A stretch of DNA of 64,000 nucleotides. Source: Chloranthus sessilifolius. Its lineage: Eukaryota > Streptophyta > Magnoliopsida > Chloranthales > Chloranthaceae. Location: NCBI GenBank assembly GCA_021018995.1, contig CM037593.1, positions 12,490,088 through 12,554,087 of the forward strand, written 5' to 3'. The position numbers and the translations under genes were made by a program. Below are positions 1,976 to 39,727 of this stretch, in pieces; position 1 is the first letter of the stretch; the number at the start of each line of letters is the position of its first letter. The notes beneath the pieces were generated by a model that was given only the letters and a program-made list of their open reading frames with translations, did no database searches and had not been told where the DNA came from.

Positions 1976-2431
1976 GAGCATCTCCGGTCCAATGGGAAAT
2001 AGTCGAAAATAGATGTTGAAGAATGAGATGTCAGTATGGACTACTGAATCTCGGGCTTCAAATTTTGAATGATCCAATAGGAAATGTCAACAGTAACCGT
2101 TTGGTTGCAAATTACTATATTAAGGAAGCAAAACGTTACATTTTCTATATAAAAGATAGTAGGGTTTTTTGCAAATACCTCCTTAGTTATGTTGATATTA
2201 CAAATAACCCCCCCAATTATAGTTATTTGCTTTAAACCCCCTGAGTTAGCATTTTTGTGTTTATAAAACACCCTCTTTAACGGATACTACTTTAAATGAT
2301 TAATCAGCCGTTAAAGAATAGCTTAAATACCATATTTATCCTTTTTAAAATTAAATTATTAAATTGCCACCCTCTACACGTGGTAAGATAATTTTAAATC
2401 CACCCCTCCACTTACAAAAAAGAATAGTTTT

Positions 2432-3043: not shown

Positions 3044-3260
3044 GAAGCAGACGCGGTTAGGCAATCTAATTCCTAAAAATGGGTCTTGAATCATGTAGGA
3101 AATTGGAGGGACGAGTATTTTGAGTAGAACACGTAGATTGAAGGTTTTCTTTTCAAGAATAATGGTATCGTTTGCCACAAATCCTCCATTGGTTGAATAT
3201 TTGTCCAAATGTTGGCATGCTTTAATGGGGGAATCACCCATCTGATGAGTCTTGAATCTG

Positions 3261-3840
3261 ATGGGTGAATGAAAGGCCTTTTAGAAGAGTACCTTTAAAT
3301 CCACCCACTGAATCTTTAAGCTCACCTGCACTGAAACACGTTGATTGAATTGAATCGAACGATGGATATCATTTATCCTCCCAATCTTTCACATGATGGA
3401 TCTTGAGATTATGATCGTACCATCAGACGGTCAGTGTTTTATTTCACATGACACACATCTCAGAAAAGTGGCCTTAACATCACGTGCATGCTTAAAATTG
3501 ATATTAAGGTCACTTTTAGGGGTGTGTACCACATGAAGTAAATAGTCGACCGTTTGATGGTACACCCATGATCTAAAGATCGATCTCATGAAAGATTGGG
3601 ACGATAAAAAATCTCCATCGTTTGATTCAATGCAGTCGATGTGTTTCAGTATGGGTGAACTCAAAGATTTTGTGGGTGGATTTAAAGGTACTCCTTTTAG
3701 AATAGTGGTAAATTATAATGACATGATTTGTAAATAAAGGTGGATGAAGAGCCTTTTAGAATGGTGATAAACTTTAATGGCATGACTTATAAATATAGAT
3801 GAATGAAGGGCCTTTCAGAATAATGGTATTTTTAAAATAT
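3261..3840. repeat. About 60-bp minisatellite interrupted by foldback MITE II
   Basis: Units containing GATGAA, then GGCCTTTTAGAAT, then TGGTAAA, then ATGACATGA are seen at 3261-3286 (continuing at 3703-3725), 3726-3784 and 3785-3835. The MITE landed in the CTTTTAGAA part of the first unit. The arrangement shows that the repeat array is older than the MITE. Confidence 0.6.
3287..3693. mobile_element. Foldback MITE II, Mutator-like, with perfect 9-bp target duplication
   Basis: The 407-bp element starts GAGTACCTTTAAATCCACCC and ends with the inverse GGGTGGATTTAAAGGTACTC. It is flanked on both sides by CTTTTAGAA (3278-3286 and 3694-3702), an exact 9-bp repeat that marks it as mobilised by a Mutator-like transposase. 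Almost the whole length folds back on itself, around a centre near 3490. A transcript would form a long hairpin of the kind that feeds 24-nt siRNA production. It has no coding capacity. Confidence 0.8.
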
Positions 3841-4766: not shown

Positions 4767-4925
4767 ATGGCGAAGAAGAGGAAATCAGATGCGACGCGGC
4801 TCGACGAAGTAAATCGAACGATGCACACTACCTTTTGCACCGCGGCGAATTCACTGTCGCAGCTCTATACCCAAGCCATGAATCAGCAGAAGCTCGTTTT
4901 CCAAGCAGGAGAGCGTCATGGCCTG
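4767..4925 (+). CDS. Host gene exon 1 (53 codons)
   Basis: The ATG at 4767 opens [18 protein letters not shown] and continues to FQAGERHGL. The next bases, GTTTGG, form the donor after CTG. Relatives read AGERHALEKLYQW at this point, so the break between L53 and E54 agrees with exon 2 beginning GAG AAA CTG. The frame stays open past the donor to 4970, but that tail ([14 protein letters not shown]) is intron translation. The overlapping frame that starts at 4742 is a shadow. Confidence 0.88.
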
Positions 4926-7900
4926 GTTTGGGCTCTTCTCTTTTTAAAATACAAGTTTTTTCTCGATTAATCATGGTTTTATTGAGTGTGATTAGATGGG
5001 TTTTCGTTAAGTTGAGTTTGATTTTATGGGTTGGTCTTCTTTTGTTCTCAATTTGATTGATTGATCTTCTCTTGGTGTCGTGGTTGATTGTATATTCATA
5101 TTTTCGACTTAAGTTTAGTTTCTTGATAGGTCTTCACGGATTTGAGTTTTGTTCGATGAGTTGATCTTCTTTGGGTTGTTTTTTTTTTATGGGTTTGCGT
5201 GTTTTAGACTTACTTATCGTTTTAGTGGGTTTGGGCACTTTACTTTTAAAAAATAAAAGATTTAAAAAAAAAAAAAAATCGATTAATGGTGGTTTTATCG
5301 AGTTTGATTAGATGGAGTTTCATTGATTTGAGTTTAATTTGTGTGGATCTTATTTTGTTCTCAGTTTGATGGATTGATCTTTTGGTATCCTTGTTTGATT
5401 ATATTTGCATATTTTTTACTAAATTTCGTTTCCTGATAGGTCTTCACGTATTTGAGTTTTGTTTGATGAGTTGGTTATCTTTGACTTTGGGTGATCTTTT
5501 TAATGGGTTTGCGTGTTTGTGACTTATTGTTTTAATGGGTTTGGGTTCTGTACTTTCTAAAAATACAAGATTTTTATTCTTTTCGATTAATCATGGTTTG
5601 TTTAAGTTTGATTAGATGAGGTTTCATTTATTTGAGTTTAATTTGATGGGTTGTTCTTCTTTTGTTTTCAATTTGATTGATTGATCTTCTTTTGGTGGTG
5701 GTGTTTGATTATATTTACATATTTTTGACTTAAATTTCGTTTGTAGATGGGTTTTCATGGATTTGAGTTTTGTTTGATGAGTTGGTCTTCTTTGGGTGAT
5801 CCTTTTAATGGTTTTGCATGTTTTTGACTTACCGTTTTAATGGGTTTGGGTTCTTTACCTTTTAAAAATACAAGATTTTTTTGATTTATCATTTTGATAG
5901 GTTGTTCTTCTTTGGGGTCGTTGTTGATTATATTGCATGCTTTCTACTTTAAATTTCATTTCTTGATCATTGGTGGGTCGAGTTTTGTTTGATGAGTTGG
6001 TCTTCTTTGGGTGTTCTTGTTAATGGGTTTGCATGTTTTTTACTTACTTATCGTTTTCTTTTTGGGTGCCATTATAATTATATTCACCGGCCAAGAATGA
6101 TGGGTATATTATCTGATGGGTCAAAATATCATCCGATACTGTCGGTTTTGGACCTCACCGATACGGTACATTTAAGGTACTGTATCGGTGTCTCCCATAC
6201 AAAAATTCAAAATACCGGACGATACATTGGAATGTATCGTCCGGAACCGATACGTATCGGTTTTGGGGCTGGACGATACGCATCGTTTTCCGAGATTTTG
6301 ATCCATGGTCTTCATGTATTTGAGTTTTGATTATGCGTTCTTCTTCATTTGATTTTTTTGTTCGTGGGCATTTTAAAAAAAATTAAATTTTCTTTCTTGG
6401 ATCAATATCATTATCCTCGCCAACCAAGAACAGGTTCTATTTGATCTGATGGCTGTTCTTTGTTTTGAATTCCATTTAATGGTTGATCTTCTTTTGGTGT
6501 TCTTGTTCGCGGATTTGCATGTGTTGGCTTAAATTTTTGTCTATTTATCAGTATTGTCATTTTTGACTTCAAAGAGCTTATATTTTTGGTTGGGCTTTGT
6601 GTGTGTGTGTGTGTGTGTGTTATGGTTATATTCTCAAGTTCTGGTGGTTCATGAACGTGATGATATCCATTTCCTAAACTCAGGAAAGATTTGTACATGT
6701 ATGCTACTGGTCTGCTGGAATTTGTGGCTGTAATGGACGATTATTTATTTCTAAAGTGTATGAGTTTTACAAATGATCTTTAGCTTATTTTCTTTTGACA
6801 GTTAATCTTATTTTGTATGCATTTTATTATTCTCATTGTTAATCTTTGAAATTTCGGGTAATCAAGAATTTAACTAGTGAAGTACTATTGTAGACAATAT
6901 GATCACAACCACACAACACAAGGATTTTAATGTGGAAACCCAACCAGGAAAAAAACCACGAGACCTATCTCAGGTCCAAGGCAAACAATCCACTATGAAA
7001 AATGTAAAGCTTACAGTGATGTGTGAATGTTGCTAACACTCCGCTCACCAGCAACGTTCGAGTCCCACAAACGTCCTTTCATAATGCGGACGGTTATCGC
7101 CTCCAGTCAACGCGTCCTACGTTGATCCACTCGAGTCACACGAGCAAGCACAAAGCTTGAGTCTTACAAGCTTCTAATCTTTTTTTGATGAATGGCAAGA
7201 TCTCCTTGAGTTTACACAATGGGTGATGATATATAAGAAGTAATTCAAGGAGTTAAGGTTATAATTTTATTTCGGATTATAAGTGTCAGTAGTTTGGTTT
7301 CCGAAAGAATTACAATAAAACACACTCGGATGTGTTTATATAACCCATGCACAGCCGACCTCCACAACCGTCTGTGCGCGCGGACGTTTGCCACGGTCAT
7401 CCCTGAATTGCAGACGGCTGTGTTTTCGTCCGCCCACAATAGTTGACCGTCATCATCATGGTCATCCGCAGATCACGGACAGCTGTGGTGCCATCCACCC
7501 AAGATATTTTGACCGACATCAACAGGTCGGCATGTGATGTCGGTTTAGGTGGTTCTTGTGTTGATTTCGGTTTAGGTGGTTCTTGCTGTTTTTCTTTGCA
7601 AAGTTCTTCTGAGAAGTGGCCTGAAGTCAGTTGACTCCTTGGAGGATCAGTTGAGTTGTATAATTCGCAGTTGCATACACTAATGGGAGTATAACTAGAT
7701 TTTAGCCATGATTGAGACAAAAATATGCTAACAATCTTCCCCTTTGTCACAATCATGACAAAATCTTTACATGGACTCATGAAATTTGGTAACCATGATG
7801 TTGCTTTATCTAATTCCTATACATCAAGTCTATATCCAATGTGAAAAAATACAACACAAGGACTCCCCCTAAACACAATGCCAATTATAAAAACTTGAAA

Positions 7901-10900
7901 AACTCATGAACCTATATCCTGAAACAGTGAACAAACAGATCAAGTGTAGTGTGCAAAAATAACAATAATGATAAAACTAAAACAAACGCAAACAGATACT
8001 ATCTCCCCCTTTTTGTCATGATGGGACAAGGGTAAACAAACACACACAATAGGGTTATATTCTACATTAGGTGAAAAAGTTGAACTGATTACAGTGAAAA
8101 CAGAAAAAGAGAGGGCTTATAAACATGGATGCCCAGTCAACCAGACAGAAGAAAATTACATAACGTTAACCAAGAAAATCCCCGTTGGGATCATCTTCTC
8201 CTTCTGGTGGGAGCGATGGTGCGGGTTGTGGTGGTGGTACGATCACCGGAGGAGGGGGTGCCAAATATACTTGATCAAACCGGTGAAGAAGTGTATCAAC
8301 AGAGCCTTGGAAATTGGCCTTCATGTTGCCATTCAAATCGAATCCGGTAGCCATCTGAACGGATAGGGCGTGGATATTGGCCTCAAGCTGGTTAAAGCGA
8401 GGATCGAAATAATCCAAGCCTGGATATGGGTTTTGGGGCATAAAAGGCGATGGAATAAATGGTGGATCACCTTGCATACCGAACCCCGGAACCATAGGCA
8501 CCTGTGTCTGGGCTCCAGCAAGTTCGTCCTCTTCTTTCTCTTCATTATCAGACTATCAGTCTAGTCTTCATCATCAGCTTCTTCAGATGGCGTGTCAATA
8601 CAGAGAACACGAGGGCGCTTGTTGATGGAAGAAGTTTTACCCATAGCCTCCTGAGGACGCTTGATTGCCATATGACTAGGCCAGTTGAGCGGCAGATGAT
8701 GACTGGGTAGGGAAGACTGTGATTGCTAGATTGATCATGCATACGTCGAACGATAGAATTATAAATGATTGAAGCAAGACATAATGGTTGACTTGTTTCC
8801 ATCAAGTAGATGAGGTAGACCGTATCCTATTGAACTTGTTCTTGATTTCCACGCCATGGAGTAAGCGTAGCAAAGAGGACGTAGCGGAACCATTGGTAGC
8901 ATTCACGAAGTTGGCACCAATGGATGGCAGTTTTGGGAGGATGAGTGTGAACGCAGACATGATCGTACACCAACCGAGGAATGGAGGTGGAAATGGCATG
9001 ATCTTAGGACAATGGGAAGTCCATTGCATCAGGAACCAACGACACATCAAGGACTTCAACAATCTGTCGAGGTGAGATCTGAACAGTATGCCCATAAACG
9101 TAACTTAATGTGTAGTGATCGCGAGGATTCGAAGCCATATGTTCATGGCTAAAGTTGGCATAGAAGTAACAAACGACATCGATGTATGCGGGACCATTGA
9201 TGTGACATAGGCATAACCACCACGGTTGGTGAATTCATCGTATAACTGATGTTCGTGCAAGTAGGATTCGTGAATTGGACGCTCAACAACAAGGGAATGT
9301 TTGCAAAAAGTTTCATGATATCGAATACGTCCAAGATTGGTTTCGAGAGTCTATCAAAACCGGGCTTCAGGGGGTCCCACCGGTGGTGAAGATGGAAACA
9401 CTCGTGATGCAAACGCGAACGCGCAATTAGGTGGACGACGAGGAGCCATTTGATTTGAAATAACGCGCGAAAAACCGTTAGAAACCGACAACCGTCAGGA
9501 AAAGATAAAAAGAAGAAACTAAGAAAAATTCGGTTGAAATTTTTGGAGAAGAAAATGAAGGCGATAGCACTTAATAAACATGTGGACGGCTGCGTCTATC
9601 GACGTGGACGACTGCACCACGTGGACGATTAAGGATGATTTGGTACAAAAATGAGCCAATGGATGGCATTAAGGGGGATTGACATAGAGGAAGTTGCAGA
9701 CGTTTGTGCATTTGTGCGAACGTTTGCTCCACGTGGCGGTGGTGTAGGGATTGGATCCGACAAATGTGCAGACAATTGCATGTGCATGCGGTCGTCCGCC
9801 GATGAAGAAACAACGAGACATTATGTTTGCGGACGTCTGCATGCGCATGCAGACATCCGCTCAAGAAGAAACAGTGAGGGCCCTTTTTTGTAGACATCCG
9901 CATGTGTTGCGGATGTCCATGCATAAACGATTTTGTAGGCAGCACAATGGACGCAAACACGTGGACGGCCTAGGGCGATTTGGTACCAAAATGAGCCAAT
10001 GGATGGCATTCAGGGTTGTGCAGGGATTGGATCCGACAAGGATGCGCGGACGTCCGCTCCACGTGGCGGTTGTGCAGGGATTGGATCCGACAAGGATGCG
10101 CGAACATCCGCTCCACATGATGGTTGTGCAAGGATTGGATCCGACAAATGTGCGGACGACTGCATGTGCATGCGGTCGTCCGCCAATAAAGAAACAACGA
10201 GACATTATGTTTGCGGACATCTACATGCGCATGCGGACGTCTGCCCAAGAAGAAATAGTGAGGGCCCTTTTTTGCAGACGTCTGGATGTGCATGCGGACG
10301 TCCGTGCATAGACGATTTTGTAGGCAGCACAATGGACACGAGGGAAGGCCCGCGGATGTTTGTGAACCCATGATCGTGTGTTTTTTCCAAAAAACCTATA
10401 AAAATTATTGAGTTTTGAAAATTTTGAGATCAATATAAAATAACCTTGCAATATATATTTGTTATTATTATTATTATTTTTAAAAAGATTCAGAAAGATG
10501 AATTTGAGCTCAAGATTAGGTATCCAAATAGGAGATCAAGCAATATTAAAAAAATTCTTTATACATTACTTAATGTCAATTATTTTTGATAAAACAATAA
10601 CCATGAACTATGATTATGTGAGCAGAATTTTAGATGGATCAGGTGAATTTCAACTCGCTACTCACATATCACTTATTACCGACATTAAGCTTGCTGATAC
10701 TTGGAAAATGTGAGCAATATTTTTTTAAAAAAACTAAACAGAACATCAACAATCAAATGCATAAAAGAGCAACATATAATAACGCAATCCTCAACATTAA
10801 AAGAATACAGTACCATGCAGTAACTTTATTAAATACTCACAGTGAGTAAAGGGAGAGAAGTGAATCCTCAAGAAGCTTGTCGATCACCCTATATAGTCCA

Positions 10901-13900
10901 TGTCTGCACCTCACCCAAACTCGATATCAGTAAGATCTGTCAACATAAGTCGAGGGATGAGCGTTTTGCCACGGTGCTCAGTAGGGGTAACCACTGATCC
11001 CAAAAGACTCGTCTTAATCATAACATGGTCGTATCTTAGAAATTTTAACTTATCATATAATTTCAATTCATTCTCTTATCTTATTAAAAACATATTATTT
11101 ACATATTTCTTATATAAAACATGCGGTTGAGTTTTGGAGCTGCCTACGTACCCTAATTGGGATCAAGCCGACCGTAGTTCTAAAACTTACATATTCATAA
11201 TATAATAGATGCATAACAGGGGCCCACAATGCAGTAAGGGTCACAAGCATCACTCAACCAGATAACCGCATCCTTTCACGTGGAAGCAATTCTATACGTC
11301 CCATTCCGTATAGAGGAAACTTCCGGATCGGATGACTCAATCCGGTCTTGTGAAATCCCGTGAAGGTAACTACACCATGGGTAGAACGTAACATAGCTTA
11401 TTCTTATTGTTGAATTCATAATTTACTTATAACGTGTTAGAATTTCTTCATTTCCACAATTTACTTCTCGCATCATATCTTAGCTTATTTCACCAACAGC
11501 TTAAGTCTTGTGGCTTATCTTTAACTTATCTTGGCTTATCTCGCCTATGGCTTAAGTCCCGTGGCTTATCTTAACTTATCTTAGCTTATCTCGCCTGCGG
11601 CTTATATTGACTTATCTTATTTTATCTTATCTGCGGCTTAGGTCCCGCGATTATACTTTTAGGTTCACGGCTTAGGTCCCGTTCACCTTGCTTAGGTCCC
11701 ATTCACCTTTTCTTAACTTGACTTAACTCATCACTCTTATTCTTAACAGAGAACACATTCATCATATCATTACCTTAAATTGTAACTTAAAATAGCTTAG
11801 GTGCATAGACAATACCCTAAGACTACATATAATAAGACGGGAATACCTACCGTCGATAGTTGGTCAACTCATATCACCGGATGCGAACATCCTATTATGT
11901 CACCGAAGGCTGCGGACCTTTAACTAATCACCGGAGGTGAACCCCCTACTAATCACTAGAGGCCACGGTCCTCCAACTATATCAACAGATGCAAGCATCC
12001 TAATAAATGGACTTGGTATTCGACACAAATCATTAATAAACTTATCGCTTGCCTCAAAAATATTATTTTCGTATCTTAACTTTGGATGAGCCGTTATGTG
12101 ATTAAACTCTCAATCACGTCCTATCTCAAGGCATGAAGTTATCACCACAATCCTCGTACTGTAACGCCCCATACCATCATAGTGAACAAGGATTGGGAAA
12201 TGAAATAATACCCATTGACAAACGGGATCGCTTGTAGAATTACACAAGAGCATGGGCTTACTTACTACATAACTCATATTCATATTTAAATCATATAAGT
12301 GATGCAATGCATACACAACTTAAAAAGTAGCTTAGCGTATTCTTATCTCGGGCTTAACGTATACCTGTGCCTTACATGATCTTAATGTGTTCTTAAATCT
12401 TAGATAACCCATTATTTACAACGTATCACATAGCTTAACATTGTCTTACACGATCTTATCGTATTCTTAATTCTTAGATGTTCCATTATCAAAGCTTCAT
12501 AACATACACGGGTTTTGGAACTTTATTCGTGTACATAGGAATATTCATTTCGCACATGTACGGTTAATAATAATAATACTTATACACACTTAATAACTTG
12601 AGCAAATGTAATTATATAGCAATATATTATAACAATAATTATATGTATACATGTAAATACACATACATGCATTTTACGTGAATAACATGGATTTAGGATT
12701 TTCGTGAATGGTCGTTGATAGTGCAATATAATAATAATTTTATTTTAGTGTAAGAAGTATAAAATTATATAATAATGTGGCATTAATCACATTACCTCAG
12801 TGGCTAGTATTAGAACAATCTGAACCACCAATTAAATTCTTTGGGTCGAGATAGATAGGGTTGGAACTCTAGAGTCGAACCCAAATTTTGGCCTAATACC
12901 CGATTCTAAGACTAATTAACTGGTCACGATCTGATTTAATGAAACGATTTGAGGCCTTGTTTAAATAAATTGTGAAGTGATCTGGGCCCGTGCCTTAGAC
13001 GGCCTTTGGCGTTTAGTTAAAAAAAAAAAGGCCTAATAACTGTATAGTTGAATGGAAGGGAGCCATGGGCTTGTGCATATCAATATAGGCCATGGGCTTA
13101 TACATATCAATAAAAGCCATGGGGCCAGTTTGTTTAAAGTTACAACCAGTATTAGGTATGTTGTTAATAAGAGAGCCTAGGGCCTTATTCACACAAAGGT
13201 ATCATCGCCCCCGTTTCTAGGAGGACCACTGAGTGTTCAAACTATATAAGGGTCATTGGCCATAGAAATTAAATAAGAACCATGATCGTTGTTTGAATTT
13301 TAATAAAGGCCACACACTTTTTATTTATTTATTATTATTGTTATTATTACTTTTATTCTATTTTATTAATAAGGCTCTTGGGCCATGACATTAACAATTA
13401 GAAAGGCCATCAACCCATCAAACCACAAAATAATAATTTTATTTTATACTAATTTTCTGGTATAAAACTCTATAAAAAGGAAAATTTAGTAGTTATAACA
13501 TTGATAGTTTTAATCACATACTATGGTCAGATTCACATAATCTGGTCCGTTGGATGCAAAGAGGAGGCAAAATGGCGAGGGTCAGTTTCTAAGAATATTT
13601 TCAAATGTATCCAAAGGCTCCATGTTCTATTTTTATTTATTTATTATTATTTTGCCAAAAGCACGTAAAAGACAGCCATTTATATGTATTTATTTTGATC
13701 ATCATTATTATTATTTTGAATATGATAAAAAACCTAATCTAATGGGCACAAGAGATGGGTGAGTCGTGCCTGGTACTTCGGGTGGGGGATTGGATTTGCA
13801 ACCAGTGTCGCAACGTCAACTTCCGTCGACGTGCGTTCTGTCATCGCTATGGTTGTGTCTCCCCAAGGTCCCGAGGCACGGCTGTTAAGTTGGGTGATGA

Positions 13901-28900: not shown

Positions 28901-31900
28901 GAAGGGGGACGAGAGTGAAGAGAGCACAATAAACCACAAATGACCATATTGGTAATATTTGGGATCACTAATACAATGAAGTAGAGTCTTGTATATAGAG
29001 CTTCCCTCATAGGTTCACACATTCTTTTACAACTTAAGTGATTTTTATTGCTTTGTAGATTAGATATCCAAGGTTCCTTAATCACAATTGACGATTGAGA
29101 TTGAGAGCTGGAAGATTAGTGTAGATATCTGTAGTTTCTTAGAAGCAATTGACGACTGCGGCTGAGGGGTGAAAGATATATTTTATTTGCTTTCTAGTTT
29201 AGATTTATTTTTATGCAATTTACTGCTCTGTAAACATCTTCAAGTTTTAATTTGAATTGACGATTCAGGTTGGAATTTGCAGATTAGTGTAACGGATTTT
29301 ACTTTTCCATCTTCAATTTTCTGGAGTTTGATTGACGCTCAAATTTCTGGTAGATTGTTGATTAGATTAAATCTGTATTAATAGAATTCTAGTTTTATTG
29401 ATGCCCAATGCTAGGAGACTAGATACATGGTGTAACGGTATTTTAAATTTGTAAACATCCGATAGCTGAAGATTGTGATTGACGACCACAATCTGAAGGA
29501 GGATTTAGGATTTATTTTCTGCAAAAATTAGTTTAAGAAACCATTCTTTATTCATATTTCTCAAGTAGTTTAGGACCTTAAAGATAAATATAAATTTCTT
29601 AAATAGACTAACACTGTGTTGCCAAACATCCTCGTGCGAACGATCCTATACTAGTTCTACAATTTCCATTGTGCGCTTGCAATCGGTTAAACTCACACCT
29701 CTAATTCTAGAAACTTGCACATTTACTACTAACACACCATACCATCTCCAACACTCCCCCTCAAGTTGAATCTTCCATGATGTGGAAGTTCAACTTGTCC
29801 ATAAAAACATGAAAGTCTTTACATCATCAACTCCTCCTTACAACCAATATGGTCTTAACTTGGTGTCCAAGATACAATAAGTGGCCATGTCGTACCTACT
29901 ATGAACACCTAACGTCTTGGTGCACCACCGCACTCAAGCGATCATGTGGTACACACTACGATCCAACTATCGGTTAGTTTCATCTTTTTACGTGGCTATG
30001 GCCTCTCTCTATGGTCCCATCGGAGGCTTACTACCTCTTACAATGGTTGTTCTTGGCACCATTAGATCATACCTAAATTCAATCTAAGGGTGTTACAAGA
30101 TACACATGAGCCTTTTTACAGTACTTGTAGAAACTTGGGGGGTTATAACGCACAAGAGTCCAACCAGCTAGTTCAAATCGGCAGCCATCCATCACTTCAC
30201 ACTTTGAATTTCACTAACATCTACCACCAATGACAACTTGTTTTCCTTCCATACTTGAGAAACCTTAATGCTGAAGATGTCTACAAGGCACTTTCAAAGC
30301 AAACAATACCAAAAGCCTTCAGAGACAATTCAATAACCACCATGTAGGCAACACTTTTGATAACTAAACTCCTCCACACACAAGCTGTTGTATACATAGC
30401 CCACAAAAAAAGAGTCACAATGCCACTGCAGATTACCCACAACACCACTGGTGTTCACAGATTCCAGCCACACAGGTTACAGCATGTTTTGATAGATTTC
30501 ATCATAACACCATCAAATATTTTTTACAACTAAGAGTGAGCCTCAATAGCACAAATGAATCATTGGATTGATAAGCAGCAACAAATCAAGTCAGTCAACT
30601 TCATCAAACAGCTGGTCAACAGATCAACAATGCAGGAAATCAAATCTTTCATTTCATCAAACAGCTGGTCAACAGATGAACAATGCAGCAGAGTAAGTCA
30701 GTCAGCAGCTCCATTGGCTGCTACAACAACATGGTGGCTACTATATAGCAGCCAACAACATCTCACGACCATTTTATCGAATGCCTACGATGCGAGCATG
30801 GTTCTTTAGCACAACAATTCTGCAGTCAACGACATCGCTACTCACAGTCCTTTTATCGAACATCTGCGATGTGAGCATGTTTCTTTAGCACAATCAATTC
30901 TGCAGCCAACAACATCTCTACTCAGTCTGTTCATAAAATACCTACAATGTGAGCATGATTCTTTATCATGAAACAATTCATTAAACAGTCCAAAAACAGA
31001 TTGCAGTCCATTACAATCCATAATCAGCGAAAAAAACTAAAAGAACAACTCCATGAAACACACAAAAAATTGACCTTCAAATTATCTTAAGTTGTCTCTT
31101 CAAAGAGCTCCACAACAACAACCAAAGAGCAACAGTACAACAACTGAAAAAACAGCAAATAGATCTTCATAAGGAACTTGCAAACTGCTCAGAAACAATG
31201 AATCTCCCCTTCATGATAACCTTCAATACAAACCGCATTCCGACAGTAGCAAAAAAGATTTAAAACCCCAACTTAAAACATGCACTTCAACATTAATGGC
31301 TGCACATCAGGCATTTCACCAAACACCTGAAATCCACTCAAGAATTTCACCAAACACCTGCTAGGCATCTTTTTAATCCCACCATGGCTGCACAACAACC
31401 CACTTTTTTTTCTTGCCTTCAATGACTGCTACAGAATAACTCTCCTTCTCTACATCATCATCTCCTCCTATTCCCCCCTTAAAAGAAAAAAAACTGGACC
31501 ATGTAGCCATAGGGGAAAGAGAACTCACATAAAAATCTGGATTGGTGGCTGCAATAACAGTAGATCTGGACCTTGAATGAAGATGAACGAGATTGTTGGC
31601 AAAACCCTAGGCTGGATGCAATGTGCGGAGTGAACCCTCTCTGATACCATGTTAAAACTAATAATTGAGTAATATAATAAGGGAAATAACTAAGAAGAGA
31701 ATACCCATTAGGGTTTATGAGAGAAAGAGAGATGGAGAAGAAGGGGGAAGAGAGAGAAGAGAGCACAATAAACCACAAAGGACTAATATTTGGAATAACT
31801 AATACAAGGAAGTAGTCTTTATATAGAGGTTCCCTCACACATTCTTTTACAACTTAAAGGATGTGAGACTAAACCCACACCTCTAACTCTAGACACTTGC

Positions 31901-34900
31901 ACATTTACTTCTAACACACCATACCATCTCCAACATTGATATGGTTAAGTTGCTTGTATCCTGTCTTGGATGGTACCGATTTGTTCAAGAATTGAAGCTG
32001 AATCTCCCATTTCCAAACTCATTATTTGTTTCCCATCCAACTGTGGAGGGAATATAGGCAAAATTTTAAAGATCAGGATGCCTTCCAGTTTTGCGACATC
32101 TGTTTCTACTCCCTGATTCCAATAGGTATCCAAGAAACACCTCAACCACTTGTAAATTATTTGGAGACTTATTTTGAGGTCATGGGTTCAATCCCATATG
32201 ACCATAAAAGAAAAAAAAGAAGAAAATTCATTTGGCAAAAAATGCCTTCATGATTCTCTATGTATAGATCTGCCATACAATAACATGTTGTGGACGACTT
32301 ACCTACTCAGGCATGTATATCAAGTTTTGAAAATGAATGATTCGCTCGTTCCTAATATTTCTTCGAACTATGATTCCCGAAACACACTTACTCTTCGAGC
32401 CATAATTACAATTTCATGAGAGAAATAAACAAATTATAACAATCCTTACCTAAAATTTTCTTCCCAATACTACTCTATAGATACTCATAAACATGTTACA
32501 TAAAACATCCTCCCCTAATTATTGATCTTTCATTGAATTTAGATATATTTTTGTTTATGTTGGATTTTGGACCACATCACAACATCCTTAGAAGTGTGTC
32601 TTTAACTTGGTTCAACATTATTTAGTTGGCTTCTCTTTTCTGTGTTCGTATCCTTGTTAAGGGAATTCTCTCAAAGATGGGATAGGTTACAAGGGTGTTG
32701 ATGCGGATTTTTTAGTTGTTGAGACTCTGTAACATGTTATAAATTTTGGCTTTTGGTCTTCTCCTTCTCATACATTATTTTTTTCTAATGAAGATAGCAT
32801 ACTTCACTGCTAATAATTGTGTATGATAGTGAATTGAGTCTACTGATAAATTCATTAAATCCCTAACTAGTCAAGGATTTGTGTCTTATGCAGGAGAAAC
32901 TGTACCAGTGGATCTTGAGACAACATGAGGAGGGCTCGAGAGCGACTGGGGCTGATATAGTTGCTTACCTACAGGTTTTTCTGATTCGATCATTTTCCCA
33001 GCATTTTTTCCTTGAGTTGTTCTCATTCTTCACTTAGTTCCCATTTATCTTATTTTTCTAAGTGTGAGAAGGCTTATCCAATGTGATGGAATCACTGCAA
33101 GCAAGAAACCACACTTTTGTATGTACTTCTGCATTTCTTTGGTTTTTATTGGTAAACGACTTTCATTAAAACGTGAAACAAAGAATCGGGAGGAGCACAG
33201 TGAGGTGCTACACCTAGCAGCAGATGAAGGAAAGAACATAAAAAAAGAAAGGAAAGAGAACTAACAATGAAACCAAATAGAACAATATAAGGGATTGCTA
33301 TACCCAACAAAAGACAAAAGAACAGAAAAATCAACAAGAGTAGAAAACAATGAAACAAAATAGAACCAAATAAGAGGGAAACAAGTCTGAAAAGGACCCT
33401 CCCATAGAGGAAAAGGCCCCAAAAAGATGTAGTCACTCAAGGGGGGTTGAAACTTTTCCACTCCACAGATCTCAGAAAAAGTGTCAGCTGAGCAGTGCCA
33501 CGAGCCCAAACACCACCAATGGAGCAAAGTCCCCAATGGAAACTGAAGTTTATTATTGAAAATCCTTCGATTTCTGCTCCGTCAAAATCCCCCATGAAAT
33601 TGCAGTGGGCAGAAGCGACCAATTTACACTATATCAAGAGGGCATATTTCAAACATCGACATGAAGTAAATGGGCAAATTTATGAGGATTGCCTTTATAA
33701 TTATCACTCTCCCCTTTCAACAATAAAGCCCCCTTTTTTAATCAAATCTTTCAACCACTAGATCTCATCCCTAGATCCCATAAAGTCTTTGATTGTTTTA
33801 CAATGCGAAGAGGCAAGCCTTTCCACAGGTATGACCTTAAATATCAAGTATAATAAGGAATAAGAAATCGAGTATTAAAGAGAGGGGAAAAAATATTAAA
33901 GAAAGAAGTAAGAAAGCGATGAGGTAGGAAGCTTACAATTCAAAGAGGTACTCCAATACTAACATGGGAGTACACCCCAACTACATCCCACGAAGTTTGT
34001 TGTGGAGGCCACTTCCTACCCTTCCATCTGCTCCCCAAACAACTTCGTCTCACGGTATATTTAATCTTTGTCTAAACACTAGCTTGTAACACCTTATCAA
34101 CGGTATATTTAATCTTTGTCTAAACACTAGCTTGTAACACCTTATCACTGCCTTCGCATTAGAGAGCTTCCCAATTAAATTGTGCTTCCTATGTGTAGAA
34201 TAGATAGATTTCGACTTTGCATTTCTTTTTCCCTGTTCAGTTACTACATGGAATAGAAGAGTGTGCAAGAAATAAGGATGTTAAATTGGTCTCTCAAGAA
34301 GGCTTAATAACATATAGAATTGGTTTAGGAATCAACAGCCTTTGAGGACCTAAATTTGGTAATTGAAATGCCTAATTTCCCTTAGAAAGATGACTTTGAA
34401 TAATTTAATTATACATTTATCTAATTTTGTAATTCATGGGGTTCCTAGGAGGCTTAATAACATATAGAATTGGTTTAGGAATCAACAGTGTTTGAGAACC
34501 TAAATTTGGTAATTGAAATGCCTAATTTCCCACAGAAAGATGATTTTTAATAATTTAATTATACATTTACCTAATTTTGTAATTCATGGGGTTTTCCAGT
34601 TATAAAGTGGGAGTCACGAACATCGTTGACCTTTTGGGTGTTACTCCTAACCTCGTTAGAGACACCAGAAATCAATGAGCTTTTGTGGTAGTTTTGGAGT
34701 AAATTGACATAAATTAATTGGGCCCTATTTGAAGGGTTTAGCCTATCTGGAGCATACACAAATCTATTGTTTTATCTATTAGAATTATCCTAATTTTACA
34801 TCTTTGTATAATATGTTGAAAGGAAACTTTTCATAAGCAAGTAGGATTGGGTCATTGCATTTGATTTTGATAAACTATTTAACGACAGTTCTTTGGAAAC

Positions 34901-37900
34901 CTAGCATGGTATAGGGAAAACCTATCAATTCTTATGAAGGGATAATGGCTCCTGACCGACATTTAAACACCGAATGGTGTTTAAACAGTCTTGCACCGTT
35001 AGACTAGAGAATTTGATCTGACACCATTGAAGTGTGGTTTATTATTATGACATGTGGAGCACATTTATGATCAATCTAAATTGCCCAGATGGCAATCCAT
35101 CATTAGAACATATTTTAGCCAAAGAATCATGCCCATAAGTGAATGTGAACCATCAGAGTGGCAAACTTTAATATCAGCCATTAAAACTAAGCACAACAGC
35201 TGATAGTAGAGTGCACAGATTGGGTGGTTCAAAACTCTAAAAAAATGTGATTTTTGTGCACATTGCCTTTTAACTCTAAAAAATGTATGACCAGGTCCGT
35301 GAGAGTATTGTGGAATTTTACAAGCGATTATATACGGAGGAGGGGGGGATGAGACCGTAGCTGGATGGACTTCCTTTTAAGTCTATCTCGGAGGAGGTGA
35401 GTAAGGGGCTCGAGGGCTGTTTTACTGAGGAAGAGGTATGGCGGGCGATAAAGAGTGGGGGTAGGAACAAGGCGCCGGGTCCGGATGGGTTTACCATGGA
35501 GTTTTATCGTGCTTGTTGGTTGACTATAAAGGCCGATTTGATGGAGGTTATGTGTGAATTTCATTAGTCCGGGTTTATTGGGAGAGCCTTAAATTCCACT
35601 TTCATTACCCTCATTCCCAAATCGTGTGGGGTTGAGAATATTGCGGGTTATCGCCCGATCAGCCTCACCAACTGCCTGTACAGGATCGTATCGAAGGTGC
35701 TTGCTAATAGGCTCAGGCTGGTGATGAGTACTATTATTTCTGGAAACCAGGGGGCTTTTGTTCATGGGTGGCAACTAACGGATCTTGTTGCAGTGGCCCA
35801 CGAGACCATCCATTTGGCCCACATCCAGCGGATCCTGGTTGCGATTTAGAAGGTCGATATGGAAAAAGCGTATGATCGGGTCAATTGGGAGAACATCAAT
35901 TATATGCTACGTCGCTTGGGGTTTGGGGTGACTTGGAGGAAGTGGTTGCTGGGATGTTACTCCTCTTCGTAGTTCTCGGTGATGATAAACGGTACTCCTA
36001 CTGGGTATTTTAAGAGCTCCAAGGGTATCAGGCAGGGAGACCCTCTATCCCCGTTCCTATTTATTCTGGTTGGGGAGGCGTTAACGGGGCTGATGACAAA
36101 TGCCAGGGAGTTGCACCTGATATCCGATGTGTAGGTGGGAGCTGAGGGAAGGTACATCTTGCATCTGTGTAGTTTGCTGACGACACAATCTTATTTGGGA
36201 AGACTGATGTCTCTGAGTTCAGTGCGCTTGCCGGGGTTCTTTCGGTGTATGAGGCCGTGTCGGGGCAGCGGATTAATTTCCACAAGTCTGCTGTCACGGG
36301 GATTGGAGCTGAGGATTCTATTGTTCAGGAGTTGGCGGATACGGTCAACTGTGCTAGCGAGAAGTTGCCTATTAGGTACCTCGGGTTGCCCCTCGGGTTG
36401 AGGAAGCCCACGGCACGGGACTGGCTTCCGGTGGTGCAAAGGTTTGAACAGAGGCTTTCGTCCTGGAAAGGGAAGCTGCTAAGCAATGGAGGTAGGTTGA
36501 TTCTTCTCAAAGCCGTGCCATCTTCGATGCCTATTTTTAGATGCCCTGTGGAGATTGTCAACCACCTAGAACAAATCCAGCGGTCGTTTCTTTGAAAGGG
36601 ATCGGGTTTGCAAAGAAGATATCATCTGGTTAATTGGGACTGTTGTCAACTGCCGATTTCTTGTGGAGGTTTGGGCATCCGTAGCCTAAAATTGACTAAC
36701 CTGGCTCTACTTGGCAAATGGCATTGGAGAGCGGCGAGGGCTGAGGAGGGGCAATTTATGGTGATTGGTTCTGACCGAGAAGTATGACACTTCTCCAAGT
36801 GGGTGGGGAATCTCTCCCACGGTTCACAGAGGGTCCTCTATGTGGTGGAAAGGAGTTTGTAGCACTTGGGGGAGTTTTGCTAAGGGCTTGTGGTATCGGT
36901 GGGGATGTGGTACTCGCATCAGATTCTGGGAGGATGTTTGGGTCGACGGGGCTCCCCTTAAGGATGATTTCCCGACGATTTTCGCCATCTCTTCGAACCC
37001 GGGGGGCATGATTGACGAATTCGTGTCTCACACACAGGGAGGGGATGTTTGGGAGGTTGGCACAAGAAGGGCATTGAGAGATAGTGAGTTTGTTTGCTTC
37101 GCGGCTCTAATGTTGAAATTATATGACCTGCAGCGGAATCCTCAGGGGTAGGATCTACGAATTTGGGACCCTAACAAGGACGGTAAATTTTCTGTTAAGT
37201 CTTATTATGGGCTGTTGTCGAGGCGGTCACTCACTATTTTCGCGGGAAAGGGGTTGTGGAGGCTGCCTATTCCGTTGAAGATTCGTTTTTTTGGATGAAC
37301 GTTGTGCAAGGACAGGATCCTTGCCAGGGACTTGCTGATCCGGAGGGGGCTCGATGTTCAGAATTCTTGCGTGATGTGTACCACTGGTGTCGAATCCGCT
37401 GCCCATCTATTCCTGCACTGCAGCCTCACTTTCGAGGTTTGGACGGCAATGTATAAGGCGCTTGGTGTTAGATGGGTCGTGCCAGAGACACCTTATCAGC
37501 AGGTGTTGAGTTGGGCGGGTGCGAGGATTGACAGGGAGAGTGGGGGATACTGGACCGCATCTTTGTTAGCTGTCTTCTGGTGTTTATGGTGCGAAAGAAA
37601 CGCCAGAATTTTCGAGAATAAGAGTAAACCTGTGGGGATGGTCGTTAAGGTGGTCACAGGCGGTCACAAACTTGGTCAGATTTTGGGTGACGAGAGGTGA
37701 GGGTGGCGAGAGCCGCAATGCTTTCTCGTGGGATCCGGGCTGAGTGCGACACGTTTCGTTGTGGTGTGGCTGTCATGTGTGTTGATGTTGTTCTTTTGGC
37801 TTTATTTTTTTTTTGTTTTCTCCGGTTTTGATTTCTGTATACTAGGGTTGTATTGTTGCTCAACGTCTTGCTGTTTCTAATATAATCTCTATTACCTATC

Positions 37901-39727
37901 AAAAAAAAAATGTATGATCTATCACTTTGACTGTGTGGAGTACCCACATCTTTAACCATTGATGGTATACGAACATTTAAACACCATTTTGGTGTTTAAA
38001 TGATGGCCAGGAGTCCATTGCCCATATGTTCTACCATTGACTGAAATCTCTCCCTAGAAAGATTTGTTCAATTTTATACTGCCAAAGGCAGTTGACGAGC
38101 CAATGGTGTAAGATTATCATGTATTTTTTATTCATCAATTGTAGGGAAAGTGTGCTTTATAAATATTACAAGACATTAAAATGCTGTGTATATTCTGAAT
38201 AAAATTGTTGAAAGGTGGATTGTTGTTGGTTACACAAGCTTCTTTTAGTGCTGGAAATTAATGTGATTACCCTTTGTGGGATTGGAATTAGTGGAGTGAA
38301 GCAACTACCTTTCTATGAGTTCTTTTATGAAAATAATATCGATTATGTACAAAGTCTCCTATTGGCCAAATCTTGGCATTCATAGTGATCAATCTTTTGG
38401 CCCCCTCAGAGACGGGCCATAGCTCAATAATGACAGGTCATACATTTTCAAATACCAACCATACGAGAAATGAGCTTTTTTGTAGGTCCTGATAAATAAA
38501 TTTAGACCATCCAACTTGGATTTTTTCGTAGGGTGACCCATTCCCAGTCTAGATTGTGACCATGTTATAATTTTGGATGCCTATGGCAGTAATTTTCATA
38601 GATTATTCCTCATGACGCAAGAGACCCAATGTGGAGACCCGGTGAGTCGATCATGTGATTCAAACAGTCGAACACCTTTAAAATGAATGGCTAAATCTGA
38701 TTTTGGAGATTTACACGACGACTGTTCATTTAAAAGTCGTTTCACCTCTTTGAATCACAGGGAAGATGCATTTTCGATGCAATCTTCGACACTGCAGATA
38801 CTTGGCTTGTGAACGGGTTGGGTATCCTCTACCAGCACATCCAAATAGTGGAGATTGATTCAATTTTTAGGAACTATGGCCCATCTGAGGTATGCCATGA
38901 TGATTTGACTGTTCAGTTCTTCGATAGATGTATGAAGAGGTAGCTAAAAGAATCTTTATCTTAAGGACTCTGGTCTGGAACCAGGGGCCTTATCCTTTAC
39001 ATAGTCACCAAGTCGGGGTTTGGTAAGGTTAAAATTCGAAAAATTCTGCAAAATTCGGCAGGTTCGGGGAAAAACTTGGAGAAAGATCGGCGTCAAATTA
39101 AGATTAAAAAGTACAAAATTAAAATATATTAAAAATCACGATTTATTGGAAAAAAAATCATGAATTATTCGTGAAGTTTTAAGAAACATACGAATTTTTC
39201 AAAAATTTGCAAATAATTCGTGATTAATTCGTGTAACCTTAAATTCGCAAATTATTCGTGAATTTATCCATAAGTTGGAGAATTTGGTGACTGATCCTTT
39301 ATAGCTGGATAACTTAGTTTCTAGCATTGACAAACCCTAATGTGAACCGTTTCTTATCTTGCAGAACGAGCTTGACTATGGAGGAGAGGACAGATCAATG
39401 TCTCCGAGGTTGCAATTTCAACACCATCAGTCCCAGTCAAGTGGGGATTTTGCGCTGGCTACAGTGGGACATGGTCTTCGGTCAGGGCATTCCGATCAAA
39501 CAAAAAATTCCATGTTCTCAAATGCTCTATCGAGTCCTGTTAGGCGGAGCCTTCAGCCTTTTGACATGGGCCAGGGAGGGTATTATCCAAACAGTGGTTT
39601 GCCAAATGGAAATGGCGCACGGAATCACGAAACGACTCCTCATCAGAACCGTGATGGTAATTCTAACAGTTCCAACGATTCATCCATGGACATGCGCGAA
39701 GAAAGCCCCCGTCATGAATCTTACTGA
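4767..39727 (+). CDS. Conserved plant protein of the 'holocarboxylase synthetase'-labelled family; three exons spanning 35 kb
   Basis: The exons at 4767-4925, 32894-32974 and 39365-39727 join in phase 0 to give 200 residues. The N-terminus [18 protein letters not shown], the [20 protein letters not shown] segment and the C-terminal [13 protein letters not shown] match a small plant family that I recall being labelled 'holocarboxylase synthetase'. No biotin-ligase domain is visible, so that name is doubtful; the true function is unknown. Residues 1-80 look helical and residues 81-200 are low-complexity, rich in Ser, Asn, Gln and Gly. The basic KKRK near the start could be a nuclear signal. Relative to my memory of relatives, the linker after [10 protein letters not shown] is shorter. 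All exon boundaries use GT-AG. The introns, 27,968 and 6,390 bp, consist largely of transposons, and the big elements lie antisense to the gene. Confidence 0.85.
4926..6075 (+). repeat. Tandem array of a ~305-bp T-rich unit at the start of intron 1
   Basis: Units begin with the phrase GGTTTGGG-TTCTTTAC-TTTTAAAAATACAAG at about 4926, 5230, 5541 and 5846; the fourth is incomplete and is followed by a MITE. Each carries TTGATTAGATG, TTTGATTGATTGATCTTC and GGTCTTCACG-ATTTGAGTTTTG phrases. The first unit starts right at the splice donor, so each later unit repeats a donor-like GTTTGGG. The units are diverged (roughly 80-85% by eye). The sequence is T-rich, as plant introns usually are. Confidence 0.75.
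6115..6307. mobile_element. hAT MITE of the GGGTCAAAATATC family (copy 1, intron 1)
   Basis: The ends ATGGGTCAAAATATCATCC and, inverted, CATGGATCAAAATCTCGG match those of the 5.2-kb hAT at 53231-58468. The interior is built of repeated CGATACGTATCGG palindromes. The target duplication is not recognisable. The right flank returns to the 305-bp intron repeat (GGTCTTCATGTATTTGAG), so the element landed in that array. Confidence 0.65.
6599..6620. repeat. (GT)n microsatellite, about 11 units, intron 1
   Basis: An uninterrupted GT run stands in otherwise ordinary intron sequence. It is directly visible and probably length-variable. Confidence 0.9.
6779..6846 (+). repeat. Left part of a ~60-bp intron minisatellite split by the Copia insertion
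   Basis: The phrases TTATTTTGT and TTCTCATTGTTAATCTT continue on the other side of the Copia element at 28021-28200, where TTCTCATTGTTAATCTTAATTA recurs with a spacing of about 60 bp. The Copia target duplication (ATCTT) is part of the unit. Confidence 0.6.
6847..7733 (-). repeat. 3' LTR of the Sirevirus-like element
   Basis: The 887-bp repeat starts, on the minus strand, TGTTAGCATATTTTTGTC and ends GAAATTTCA. A TATA box, TATATAAA (minus strand, about 7335-7342), lies about 400 bp from its start. Long GTC/GAC-rich phrases with CGGACG motifs fill the middle. Its partner lies at 27156-28020. Confidence 0.9.
7734..8010 (-). promoter_or_regulatory. Polypurine tract and further PPT-like motifs
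   Basis: On the minus strand, ACAAAGGGGAAGAT abuts the 3' LTR as a polypurine tract. Two further purine blocks, TTTAGGGGGAGTCC (about 7862-7875) and GACAAAAAGGGGGAGATAG (about 8000-8018), lie upstream. Repeated PPT-like blocks before the 3' LTR are a known Sirevirus feature. Confidence 0.65.
8100..9480 (-). other. Accessory coding-like region between pol and the 3' LTR (relic)
   Basis: The minus strand carries protein-like stretches, including a proline-rich one at 8166-8501 ([15 protein letters not shown], then [19 protein letters not shown]). Further pieces run to a start-like [11 protein letters not shown] near 9450. None resembles gag or pol. Sireviruses commonly carry an extra ORF in this position, and plant databases hold a 'putative plant transposon protein' family often found beside retroelements. 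The region is broken, and its identity is not settled. Confidence 0.4.
9590..10345. repeat. GC-rich tandem repeats with GGACGTCC palindromes inside the Copia relic
   Basis: Two large units of about 345-360 bp begin at GATTTGGTACAAAAATGAGC (about 9636) and GATTTGGTACCAAAATGAGC (about 9979). The second holds three ~60-bp subunits starting GTTGTGCAGGGATTGGATCC (near 10015, 10070 and 10124). The units are packed with CGGACGTCCG, CATGCGCATGC and CCACGTGG palindromes. Base composition is far above the local GC level. All frames look open only because the repeat length and composition allow it. Confidence 0.75.
13755..15520 (+). pseudogene. LINE copy 1 ORF1 region with a RanBP2-type zinc finger at its start
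   Basis: The first frame (13755-14174) reads [18 protein letters not shown] and continues [16 protein letters not shown]. It fits the RanBP2 zinc-finger pattern W-x-C-x2-C-x3-N-x6-C, with a Tyr where the last Cys of the usual CxxC would stand (CHRYGC). After it, frames at 14336-14635 ([20 protein letters not shown], then [11 protein letters not shown]) match the DUF4283-type middle of plant LINE ORF1. The 14657-15520 frame is the variable C-terminal part. At least two frame changes and a stop separate the parts. The zinc finger could be a native ORF1 module or a captured host exon. Confidence 0.65.
16210..19830 (+). pseudogene. LINE copy 1 ORF2: endonuclease, reverse transcriptase, zf-RVT
   Basis: ORF2 opens [19 protein letters not shown], the N-terminus of an EEP-type endonuclease, and [12 protein letters not shown] (near 16623) and [10 protein letters not shown] (near 16870) supply the catalytic D/N and SDH motifs. 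The RT core runs from [15 protein letters not shown] (near 17560) through [20 protein letters not shown] and [14 protein letters not shown] to YADDMILFG (near 18261). The C-terminal zf-RVT domain ([19 protein letters not shown], then [18 protein letters not shown]) lies at 19350-19530. A stop after the first QETK (16323), frame changes near 16670, 18260, 18900-18990 and 19575, and a TAG near 17250 disable it. No RNase H domain is seen. Confidence 0.85.
21838..26720 (-). pseudogene. gag-pol region of the Sirevirus-like relic
   Basis: On the minus strand, from high to low coordinate, it shows gag (26720-25905, with a zinc-knuckle-like [10 protein letters not shown]), a GAG-pre-integrase segment (24968-24471, [19 protein letters not shown]), an integrase core (24457-23852, with [10 protein letters not shown]), reverse transcriptase (about 23450-22495, YVDDIIFGS) and RNase H (22553-21838, with ADIFTKPL). 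It is a broken fossil with numerous interruptions. A 23-base C run (G on the coding strand) ends the recognisable coding part. Confidence 0.85.
21885..21907. repeat. Homopolymer of 23 C
   Basis: The C run is directly visible near the pol end of the Copia relic. Its true length may be uncertain because homopolymers are prone to sequencing and assembly error. Confidence 0.85.
27140..27155 (-). promoter_or_regulatory. Primer-binding site of the Sirevirus-like relic
   Basis: Directly inside the 5' LTR the minus strand reads TTTGGTATTAGAGCCGG. Its TGGTATTAGAGC core matches the 3' end of initiator Met-tRNA, the usual Copia primer, with one difference. It confirms the minus orientation of the element. 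Confidence 0.75.
27156..28020 (-). repeat. 5' LTR of the Sirevirus-like element
   Basis: The 865-bp partner of the repeat at 6847-7733 has the same TG...CA ends and internal order. Reading frames within it (for example 27624-28037) are LTR text, not genes. Confidence 0.9.
28021..28260 (+). repeat. Right part of the intron minisatellite
   Basis: Three or four diverged ~60-bp units carrying TTCTCATTGTTAATCTTAATTA and TTTATTTTGTTATG phrases continue the array cut by the Copia insertion at 6846. Confidence 0.6.
28261..28809 (+). other. Intron 1 sequence with no recognised feature
   Basis: The sequence is AT-rich and has no repeat ends, coding motif or RNA-gene pattern that I can identify. Confidence 0.5.
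28815..29753 (-). repeat. 3' LTR of the small Copia-type element with a ~650-bp foreign segment
   Basis: The segment between about 29038 and 29690 has no counterpart in the 5' LTR. It ends with the phrase CCAAACATCCTCGTGCGAAC, followed by CATTGTGCGCTTGC, which resembles the LTR/leader junction text of plant retroelements. Its ends and any duplication are not resolved. Confidence 0.6.
31636..31649 (-). promoter_or_regulatory. Met-tRNA primer-binding site of the small Copia-type element
   Basis: The minus strand reads TGGTATCAGAGAGGG directly after the 5' LTR, which is the standard plant Copia primer site. Confidence 0.75.
31650..31935 (-). repeat. 5' LTR of the small Copia-type element
   Basis: The 286-bp repeat matches the outer parts of 28815-29753 closely (about 90% by eye). 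Confidence 0.8.
31941..32893 (+). other. End of intron 1, including branch and acceptor region
   Basis: Ordinary T-rich intron text leads to the acceptor TGTCTTATGCAG (ending 32893). A GGTTCAATCCC phrase at about 32187, followed by an A-rich run, recalls the B box of a tRNA-derived SINE. No convincing A box or duplicated flank supports that, so it is left uncalled. Confidence 0.55.
32894..32974 (+). CDS. Host gene exon 2 (27 codons)
   Basis: The exon reads [19 protein letters not shown] and continues ADIVAYLQ, the central conserved motif of the family. It is flanked by TTATGCAG and GTTTTTCTG. Both boundaries are phase 0. The exon is an exact 81 bp with no open-frame start of its own, so ORF searches miss it. 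It joins L53 of exon 1 to N81 of exon 3. Confidence 0.9.
33130..33600 (-). mobile_element. LINE 3'-end remnant in intron 2
   Basis: Read on the minus strand, a T-rich stretch ends GTTTCACGTTTTAATGAAAG followed by TCGTTTACCAATAAAAACC, the typical close of plant L1 3' UTRs. No coding domain is present. The 5' boundary is approximate. Confidence 0.4.
33601..34052 (+). other. Intron 2 sequence with no recognised feature
   Basis: Nothing recognisable is seen here: no repeat ends, no coding motif. Confidence 0.45.
34053..34148. repeat. Perfect tandem duplication of 48 bp
   Basis: CGGTATATTTAATCTTTGTC through to ACACCTTATCA is present twice in a row (34053-34100 and 34101-34148). The copies differ only at the last base, so the duplication is recent. 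Confidence 0.9.
34301..34599. repeat. Tandem duplication of 150 bp
   Basis: The unit starting GGCTTAATAACATATAGAAT occurs at 34301-34450 and 34451-34599 with about 95% identity. It includes the phrase TAATTTAATTATACATTTA. It is a local duplication, not a transposon. Confidence 0.9.
34944..38020. mobile_element. MITE of about 460 bp split by LINE copy 2
   Basis: The left end ATGGCTCCTGACCGACATTT and the right end read inverted, ATGGACTCCTGGCCATCATTT, match. Each carries a short inner palindrome (TTTAAACACC, then GGTGTTTAAA). The inner flanks resume at either side of the LINE. No family-specific target duplication was identified; a hAT or Mutator origin is possible. Confidence 0.6.
35291..37904 (+). 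mobile_element. L1-type LINE, copy 2, 5'-truncated, intron 2
   Basis: This 2.6-kb copy aligns with copy 1 from about 17386 to its 3' end (roughly 75% identity by eye). It ends with the same CTCTATTACCTATC-An tail. AAAAAATGTATGA occurs at 35278-35290 and about 37905-37917, a target duplication overlapping the A tail. RT motifs [13 protein letters not shown] (near 35470) and FADDTILFG (near 36171), and zf-RVT phrases (near 37370-37450), are visible. It is damaged by several stops and frame changes. The 5' truncation starts inside ORF2, as is usual for incomplete target-primed reverse transcription. Confidence 0.88.
38021..38992 (+). other. Intron 2 sequence with no firm feature
   Basis: The only structure seen is a weak inverted repeat at about 38651-38760 (GTGATTCAAACAGTCGAAC against an inverse near 38750), possibly a small decayed MITE. 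Confidence 0.4.
39001..39294. mobile_element. hAT-type MITE 70 bp before exon 3
   Basis: The ends ATAGTCACCAA and (inverted) TCAGTCACCAA are flanked by TCCTTTAC (38993-39000) and TCCTTTAT (39295-39302), a 7-of-8 match to an 8-bp hAT duplication. The interior is AT-rich with repeated AATTCGTG and ATTATTCGTGAA phrases. The element lies directly upstream of the exon 3 branch-point region. Confidence 0.6.
39365..39727 (+). CDS. Host gene exon 3 (120 codons and stop)
   Basis: The exon begins after TCTTATCTTGCAG with [19 protein letters not shown], continues through [20 protein letters not shown] and ends [12 protein letters not shown] with TGA at 39725-39727. The [15 protein letters not shown] block is strongly conserved in the family as I recall it. 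The overlapping frame at 39327-39809 is a shadow. The exon codes for the serine- and asparagine-rich tail, which probably lacks fixed structure. Confidence 0.9.
   Translation, partial: NELDYGGEDRSMSPRLQFQHHQSQSSGDFALATVGHGLRSGHSDQTKNSMFSNALSSPVRRSLQPFDMGQGGYYPNSGLPNGNGARNHETTPHQNRDGNSNSSNDSSMDMREESPRHESY

Follow-up and report, generated by a model that had tools for sequence, protein, structure and literature searches.

A conserved three-exon gene of Chloranthus sessilifolius whose introns were very probably lengthened by retrotransposon insertions after gene duplication

Long genes with introns lengthened by transposable elements are already known, in print, from Chloranthus sessilifolius, where 8187 of 34,065 genes exceed 20 kb and the long introns are ascribed to the accumulation of transposable elements (PMC8626421). 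Those parts of the same report that concern us here describe an assembly of 2168.73 Mb with 15 pseudo-chromosomes, the shortest of 95.71 Mb and the longest of 199.17 Mb, an annotation pipeline that drew on GeMoMa homology, ab initio prediction and transcript assemblies, and a single whole-genome duplication (PMC8626421). For C. spicatus, extracts of the corresponding report give 876 of 2184 orthologues longer than 20 kb and an average intron length of about 3.35 kb (PMC8626473). Beyond this genus, the excerpted account of the gymnosperms describes introns of more than 20 kb that harbour both LINEs and LTR elements, like those of the gene discussed below in another lineage (PMC9364684), and the long introns of Magnolia biondii, again in another lineage, present nothing different in kind in the portion of the source that deals with them (PMC7917104). 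Set against the available parts of the two Chloranthus reports (PMC8626421, PMC8626473), the gene of the current study is no different in kind, except that its protein is short for a gene of such length. It mainly illustrates a genome-wide pattern published for this species, and its value is that of a clean worked example, in which two insertions with defined ends account for 68% of the gene length and two paralogues show introns that lack these insertions.

An earlier note on this DNA, made from its letters, had implied that a gene of this kind would be a rarity, an implication that does not agree with the published count cited above or with the chaperonin family, which we used as a control within the same assembly. 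For this control, 66 of 89 matches were used, and the loci counted are those with three or more matches; the other 23, consisting of a single-exon match on contig C1 and isolated single matches, were omitted by hand, and two further clusters of two matches lie outside the 13 loci. The spans so obtained are rough, since neighbouring genes might be merged and outer exons might be missing, and on this basis 8 of the 13 loci are longer than 20 kb and 5 are longer than 34,961 bp, with a maximum of 54,476 bp. The gaps between profile-adjacent matches (n = 23) have a median of 2,985 bp and a maximum of 26,651 bp; the first intron of our gene (27,968 bp) is larger than all 23 of them, which is a point against calling it ordinary. 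Based on the published gene lengths and the chaperonin control, the overall length of the gene is ordinary for this genome. The note had also predicted that automatic annotation would very likely split the gene or miss its 81-bp middle exon; the published pipeline annotated the 8187 genes longer than 20 kb cited above (PMC8626421).

The window, by which we mean the whole stretch of 64,000 nucleotides that was analysed, contains no N bases and carries the gene on its forward strand, in the following parts:

4767..4925, plus strand: coding part of exon 1 (159 bp, 53 codons, ATG start, donor GTTTGG)
4926..32893, plus strand: intron 1 (27,968 bp, of which 6,789 bp remain once the Copia insertion is removed)
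32894..32974, plus strand: exon 2 (81 bp, 27 codons)
32975..39364, plus strand: intron 2 (6,390 bp, of which 3,763 bp remain once the LINE is removed)
39365..39727, plus strand: coding part of exon 3 (363 bp, 120 codons plus TGA)

All three exon lengths are multiples of 3, both introns are in phase 0, and the joined exons form a single ATG-to-TGA frame of 200 amino acids. The introns are of the GT-AG type, with donors GTTTGG and GTTTTT and with acceptors that end in ATGCAG (intron 1) and TTGCAG (intron 2). The in-phase join across correct splice sites that had been proposed from the letters was thus borne out, all six exon boundaries were exact, and the proposed coding share of less than 2% came to 1.72% by computation (603 of 34,961 bp). 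Measured against the consensus GTAAGT, both donors are weak; they gain support from the donors of the paralogue on contig C7 (GTTTGA and GTTTTC), which are almost the same. Judged by its sequence, the gene is intact, real and conserved. We infer that it is transcribed and spliced in the plant, in which case the spliceosome would remove introns of 28.0 kb and 6.4 kb to leave the 603-nt reading frame.

When the whole assembly (2,168,743,587 bases in 32 contigs) was searched with the protein, nine matches were obtained, three of them in the window (on contig C10), three on C7 and three on C4, and the C7 and C4 pieces represent the same three exons in the same order. Exons 2 and 3 of C4 are weak when taken alone (E = 0.035 and 0.7) and lie in order beside C4 exon 1. 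Both paralogues consist of three exons, have GT-AG junctions of their own placed at the same codons, and keep their frames intact, which upholds the reading of the window copy as a host gene. The exon-intron structure is conserved among these relatives while intron length varies: the gene spans are 34,961 bp on C10, 23,771 bp on C7 and 12,827 bp on C4, with introns 1 and 2 of 27,968 and 6,390 bp, 11,794 and 11,353 bp, and 5,633 and 6,501 bp, respectively. Between C10 and C7, 46 of 53 residues of exon 1 and 24 of 27 residues of exon 2 are identical. The motifs that the earlier note had picked out at the exon junctions recur with some variation in C7 (GERHGM, EKLYQW, ADIVTYLQ, NELDH) and in C4 (GERHAL, EKLNQW, TDIVAFIQ, NELDY), and they are therefore motifs of the family. 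None of the nine matches in the whole assembly is an intronless copy, on which ground we rejected the idea of a retrocopy or an expressed copy without introns. A match to the codon pattern of EKLYQW on contig C3 is probably due to chance; by hand estimate a genome this large should contain about one match of the kind, and the protein search gave no match on C3. On C7, the acceptor of exon 3 and the codons that follow it occur as two further, partial tandem copies at positions 30,682,880-30,683,459, upstream of the genuine exon; splicing to either copy would add NELDH and three residues before a stop codon. Separately, positions 2160-3718 of the window have a 91% match of 1.56 kb to sequence downstream of the C4 gene; with its 90-bp repeats, both tandem and inverted, this segment has the look of a dispersed repeat.

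The introns of the window copy contain the following repeats and insertions:

4963..5878, no strand: tandem array of a 310-bp unit in 3 copies, near the start of intron 1
6847..28020, minus strand: Copia-type LTR retrotransposon (21,174 bp with nested insertions; target-site duplication ATCTT/ACCTT)
6847..7733, minus strand: Copia 3' LTR, 887 bp (K2P distance from the 5' LTR 0.097)
10634..13400, no strand: another dispersed repeat inside the Copia element (scored for 40 of 420 candidates)
13755..19980, plus strand: LINE nested in the Copia element (6,226 bp; RVT_1 and zf-RVT domains; A-rich tail; flanked on each side by the 11-bp direct repeat GGGCACAAGAG)
27156..28020, minus strand: Copia 5' LTR, 865 bp
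28023..28212, no strand: tandem array of 50-bp units adjoining the Copia insertion on its right
29022..29690, no strand: 0.66-kb repeat of high copy number, in intron 1 outside the Copia element (scored for 40 of 9174 candidates)
35278-35290 and 37905-37917: direct repeats AAAAAATGTATGA of the intron 2 LINE, 13 bp each
about 35291..37904, plus strand: 5'-truncated LINE in intron 2, between these direct repeats

The element at 6847-28020 has the paired LTRs, the TG..CA ends and the target-site duplication (AYCTT, identical at 4 of 5 positions with one mismatch) of Ty1/Copia retrotransposons, and on its minus strand it carries domains of the Copia order, namely gag (PF14223), gag-pre-integrase (PF13976) and RVT_2 (PF07727). 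The frames of these domains are broken, such that they read as separate open pieces; a weak SH3_retrovirus match, below the cut-off, lies between them, and an integrase core was not found in the Copia pieces scanned. The sequence by the 5' LTR resembles the plant initiator-Met-tRNA primer site, and a purine tract is also present. On the left flank, the 39 bases next to the element match three units of the 50-bp array (88% and 82% for two of them, 72% for the other), and because both flanks thus share the tandem-repeat unit, the element entered that array. The LINE nested within it contains PF00078 and PF13966 and ends in an A-rich tail directly before the 11-bp repeat, and no LTR pair surrounds it in the self-comparison, in keeping with its classification. 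For the dispersed repeat that begins at about 10634, most of the long copies among the matches listed start within about 15 bases of one point, and its far end is not defined. Among the matches listed for the 0.66-kb repeat, many places in the genome show 86-91% identity; genome copy counts for the repeats of the window and for the intron 2 LINE are to be read as "at least". Outside the gene, the window also includes an LTR-element remnant with an integrase zinc-binding domain at 45252-47473, which shares 68% identity with part of the first intron of the C7 gene, AT-rich tandem arrays with units of 21, 30 and 51 bp at 53630-54700, and, at 55633-57266 downstream of the gene, pieces of a hAT-type transposase (DUF659 and hAT dimerisation domains).

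The earlier note had attributed the length of the gene to transposons, and insertions flanked by direct repeats are indeed found in both introns, with three of the elements (the Copia element and the two LINEs) having defined ends or domains that place them as transposable-element insertions within introns. When the Copia element (21.2 kb) and the intron 2 LINE (2.6 kb) are subtracted, each with one copy of its direct repeat, they amount to 23,806 bp or 68.1% of the span, and the remainder of 11,155 bp is near the 12,827 bp of the C4 gene. Both of these insertions lie about 1.4 kb or more away from the nearest splice site. The substitution rate in rice is 1.3e-8 per site per year, at which the divergence between the two Copia LTRs (K2P 0.097 at 856 sites) would correspond to an insertion 3.7 My ago. 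At 1.51e-9 per site per year, the rate given in the relevant excerpt of the C. spicatus report (PMC8626473), the corresponding age would be 32 My. In either case the two LTRs have diverged about one tenth as far as the C10 and C7 genes have at synonymous sites (dS 0.9-1.2), and blastn (E up to 1e-5) gave no match to 6847-28020 in the fetched C7 and C4 gene regions, two observations from which we place the Copia insertion after the gene duplication. It is thus very probable that we are dealing with an intact three-exon gene whose introns were lengthened by retrotransposon insertions after it had been duplicated. In this very probable sequence of events, the three-exon gene was duplicated first, and separate insertions then lengthened the C10 introns: a Copia element entered the 50-bp tandem array of intron 1, where it now holds the nested LINE and other repeats, and a truncated LINE entered intron 2.

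The C10 and C7 proteins are identical at 153 of 194 aligned residues. For this pair, to which our dN/dS figures refer (the C10-C4 pair yielded no NG86 dS), dN/dS is 0.104 with a dS of 1.21 by NG86 and 0.141 with a dS of 0.92 by YN00, each over 194 codons, and the NG86 ratio has a bootstrap range of 0.053-0.174 (200 replicates). A dS of about 0.9-1.2 suggests that the duplication is old, with the values near 1 being close to saturation. The C10 copy bears the mark of past purifying selection. With C4 as the outgroup, 9 changes are unique to C10 and 13 to C7 among 182 sites, and because of the low dN/dS and a protein evolution no faster than that of C7, the C10 copy does not look like a decaying relic. 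The concern that a tighter copy elsewhere might carry the expressed gene was well placed insofar as two tighter paralogues exist, of 23.8 and 12.8 kb; its second part, by which the long copy would be a relic, is weakened by the purifying selection and the lack of a rate excess, and we rejected it on the dN/dS and the relative rate.

A different scenario is one in which an insertion has recently stopped the expression of the C10 copy and the C7 or C4 paralogue does the work. Although the existence of these paralogues, the shorter exon 3 of C10 (363 bp, as compared with 384 bp on C7 and 450 bp on C4) and the younger age of the insertion relative to the duplication would all fit such a scenario, the start, stop, frame and splice sites of C10 have stayed intact in the presence of a Copia element that has itself aged to an LTR distance of 0.097, the dN/dS is about 0.1, and the protein has accumulated changes at a rate not above that of C7. 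We consider recent silencing to be improbable, with the proviso that a very recent event would leave no trace in the sequence. There is next to no likelihood that the three exons are scattered fragments or a chance chain and not one gene, a reading in favour of which only the large distance between them can be cited, given that their order, strand, codon junctions and phase are the same at three loci and that the intron edges at exons 2 and 3 align with C7 (32850-32979 and 39335-39731) in a comparison that, within the gene and at E up to 1e-5, aligned exons and exon edges only; since the homologous C7 and C4 loci share the structure, chance chaining was rejected. An assembly artefact as the source of the 35-kb span is hardly credible in the face of insertions with direct repeats of their own, related repeats at many places in the genome, a window without N, and Nanopore reads of 95x with an N50 of 36.4 kb (PMC8626421).

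The product of the gene is a lead worth keeping, being an apparently uncharacterised conserved plant protein that resembles HAPSTR1. HAPSTR1, also named TAPR1 or C16orf72, is a stress-response regulator described in mammals, and its Pfam entry PF15251 (TAPR1-like) corresponds to the DUF4588 domain. PF15251 is the best Pfam match of all three full-length paralogues, with E values of 6.5e-5 (C10), 2.4e-5 (C7) and 4.1e-4 (C4) and with scores of 23.3, 24.7 and 20.7 bits, respectively, that fall below the gathering cut-off of 27; the first 88 residues of C10 alone score 19.8 bits. A six-frame search of the whole genome with PF15251 gave no match, and neither did its controls; a PDB sequence search returned 0 matches at E up to 10, and among the papers retrieved on HAPSTR1 and Arabidopsis, none had, by title, plant HAPSTR1 as its subject. 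The part of the HAPSTR1 study that treats conservation names F90, A93-94, L100-Y101 and G119 of the human protein as invariant (PMC9834230), and residues F23, A26, A27, L33 and Y34 of C10 correspond by eye to 5 of these 6 positions with exact spacing. The spacing F-x2-AA-x5-LY is present, again by eye, in C10, C7 and C4, and it forms, together with the shared best Pfam match, the likeness of these proteins to HAPSTR1/TAPR1. On the other side of the comparison are the scores below the Pfam cut-off and the invariant glycine, whose equivalent (G48) fits only with a gap of 4 residues, C4 having an alanine at the ungapped place. The cited portion of the same study describes HAPSTR1 as conserved in certain plants and leaves open whether this reflects divergence or convergence (PMC9834230). 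We would put the chances about even that the Chloranthus protein is kin to HAPSTR1/TAPR1 as a diverged plant member.

In yeast, according to an extract of the relevant report, the HUWE1 homologue Tom1 interacts with a DUF4588 protein (PMC8045932). The Chloranthus protein may work with a ubiquitin ligase of the UPL1/HUWE1 type in the stress response or in protein quality control. The plant ligases UPL1 and UPL2 are relatives of HUWE1. A broader proposal, that the 200-residue protein and its two paralogues constitute the flowering-plant HAPSTR1 working with UPL1/UPL2 and that the transposon load has set pre-mRNA lengths of 35.0, 23.8 and 12.8 kb such that the timing or dose of expression differs, strikes us as unlikely when taken as a whole. 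DUF913, a domain of the HUWE1/UPL type, is encoded at four places in the assembly, and these are candidate partner genes. Two of the DUF913 matches (C2:25877248-25878351 and C7:60529605-60530603) lie in open frames of 2745 and 2263 aa, which stand out in a genome where long introns abound.
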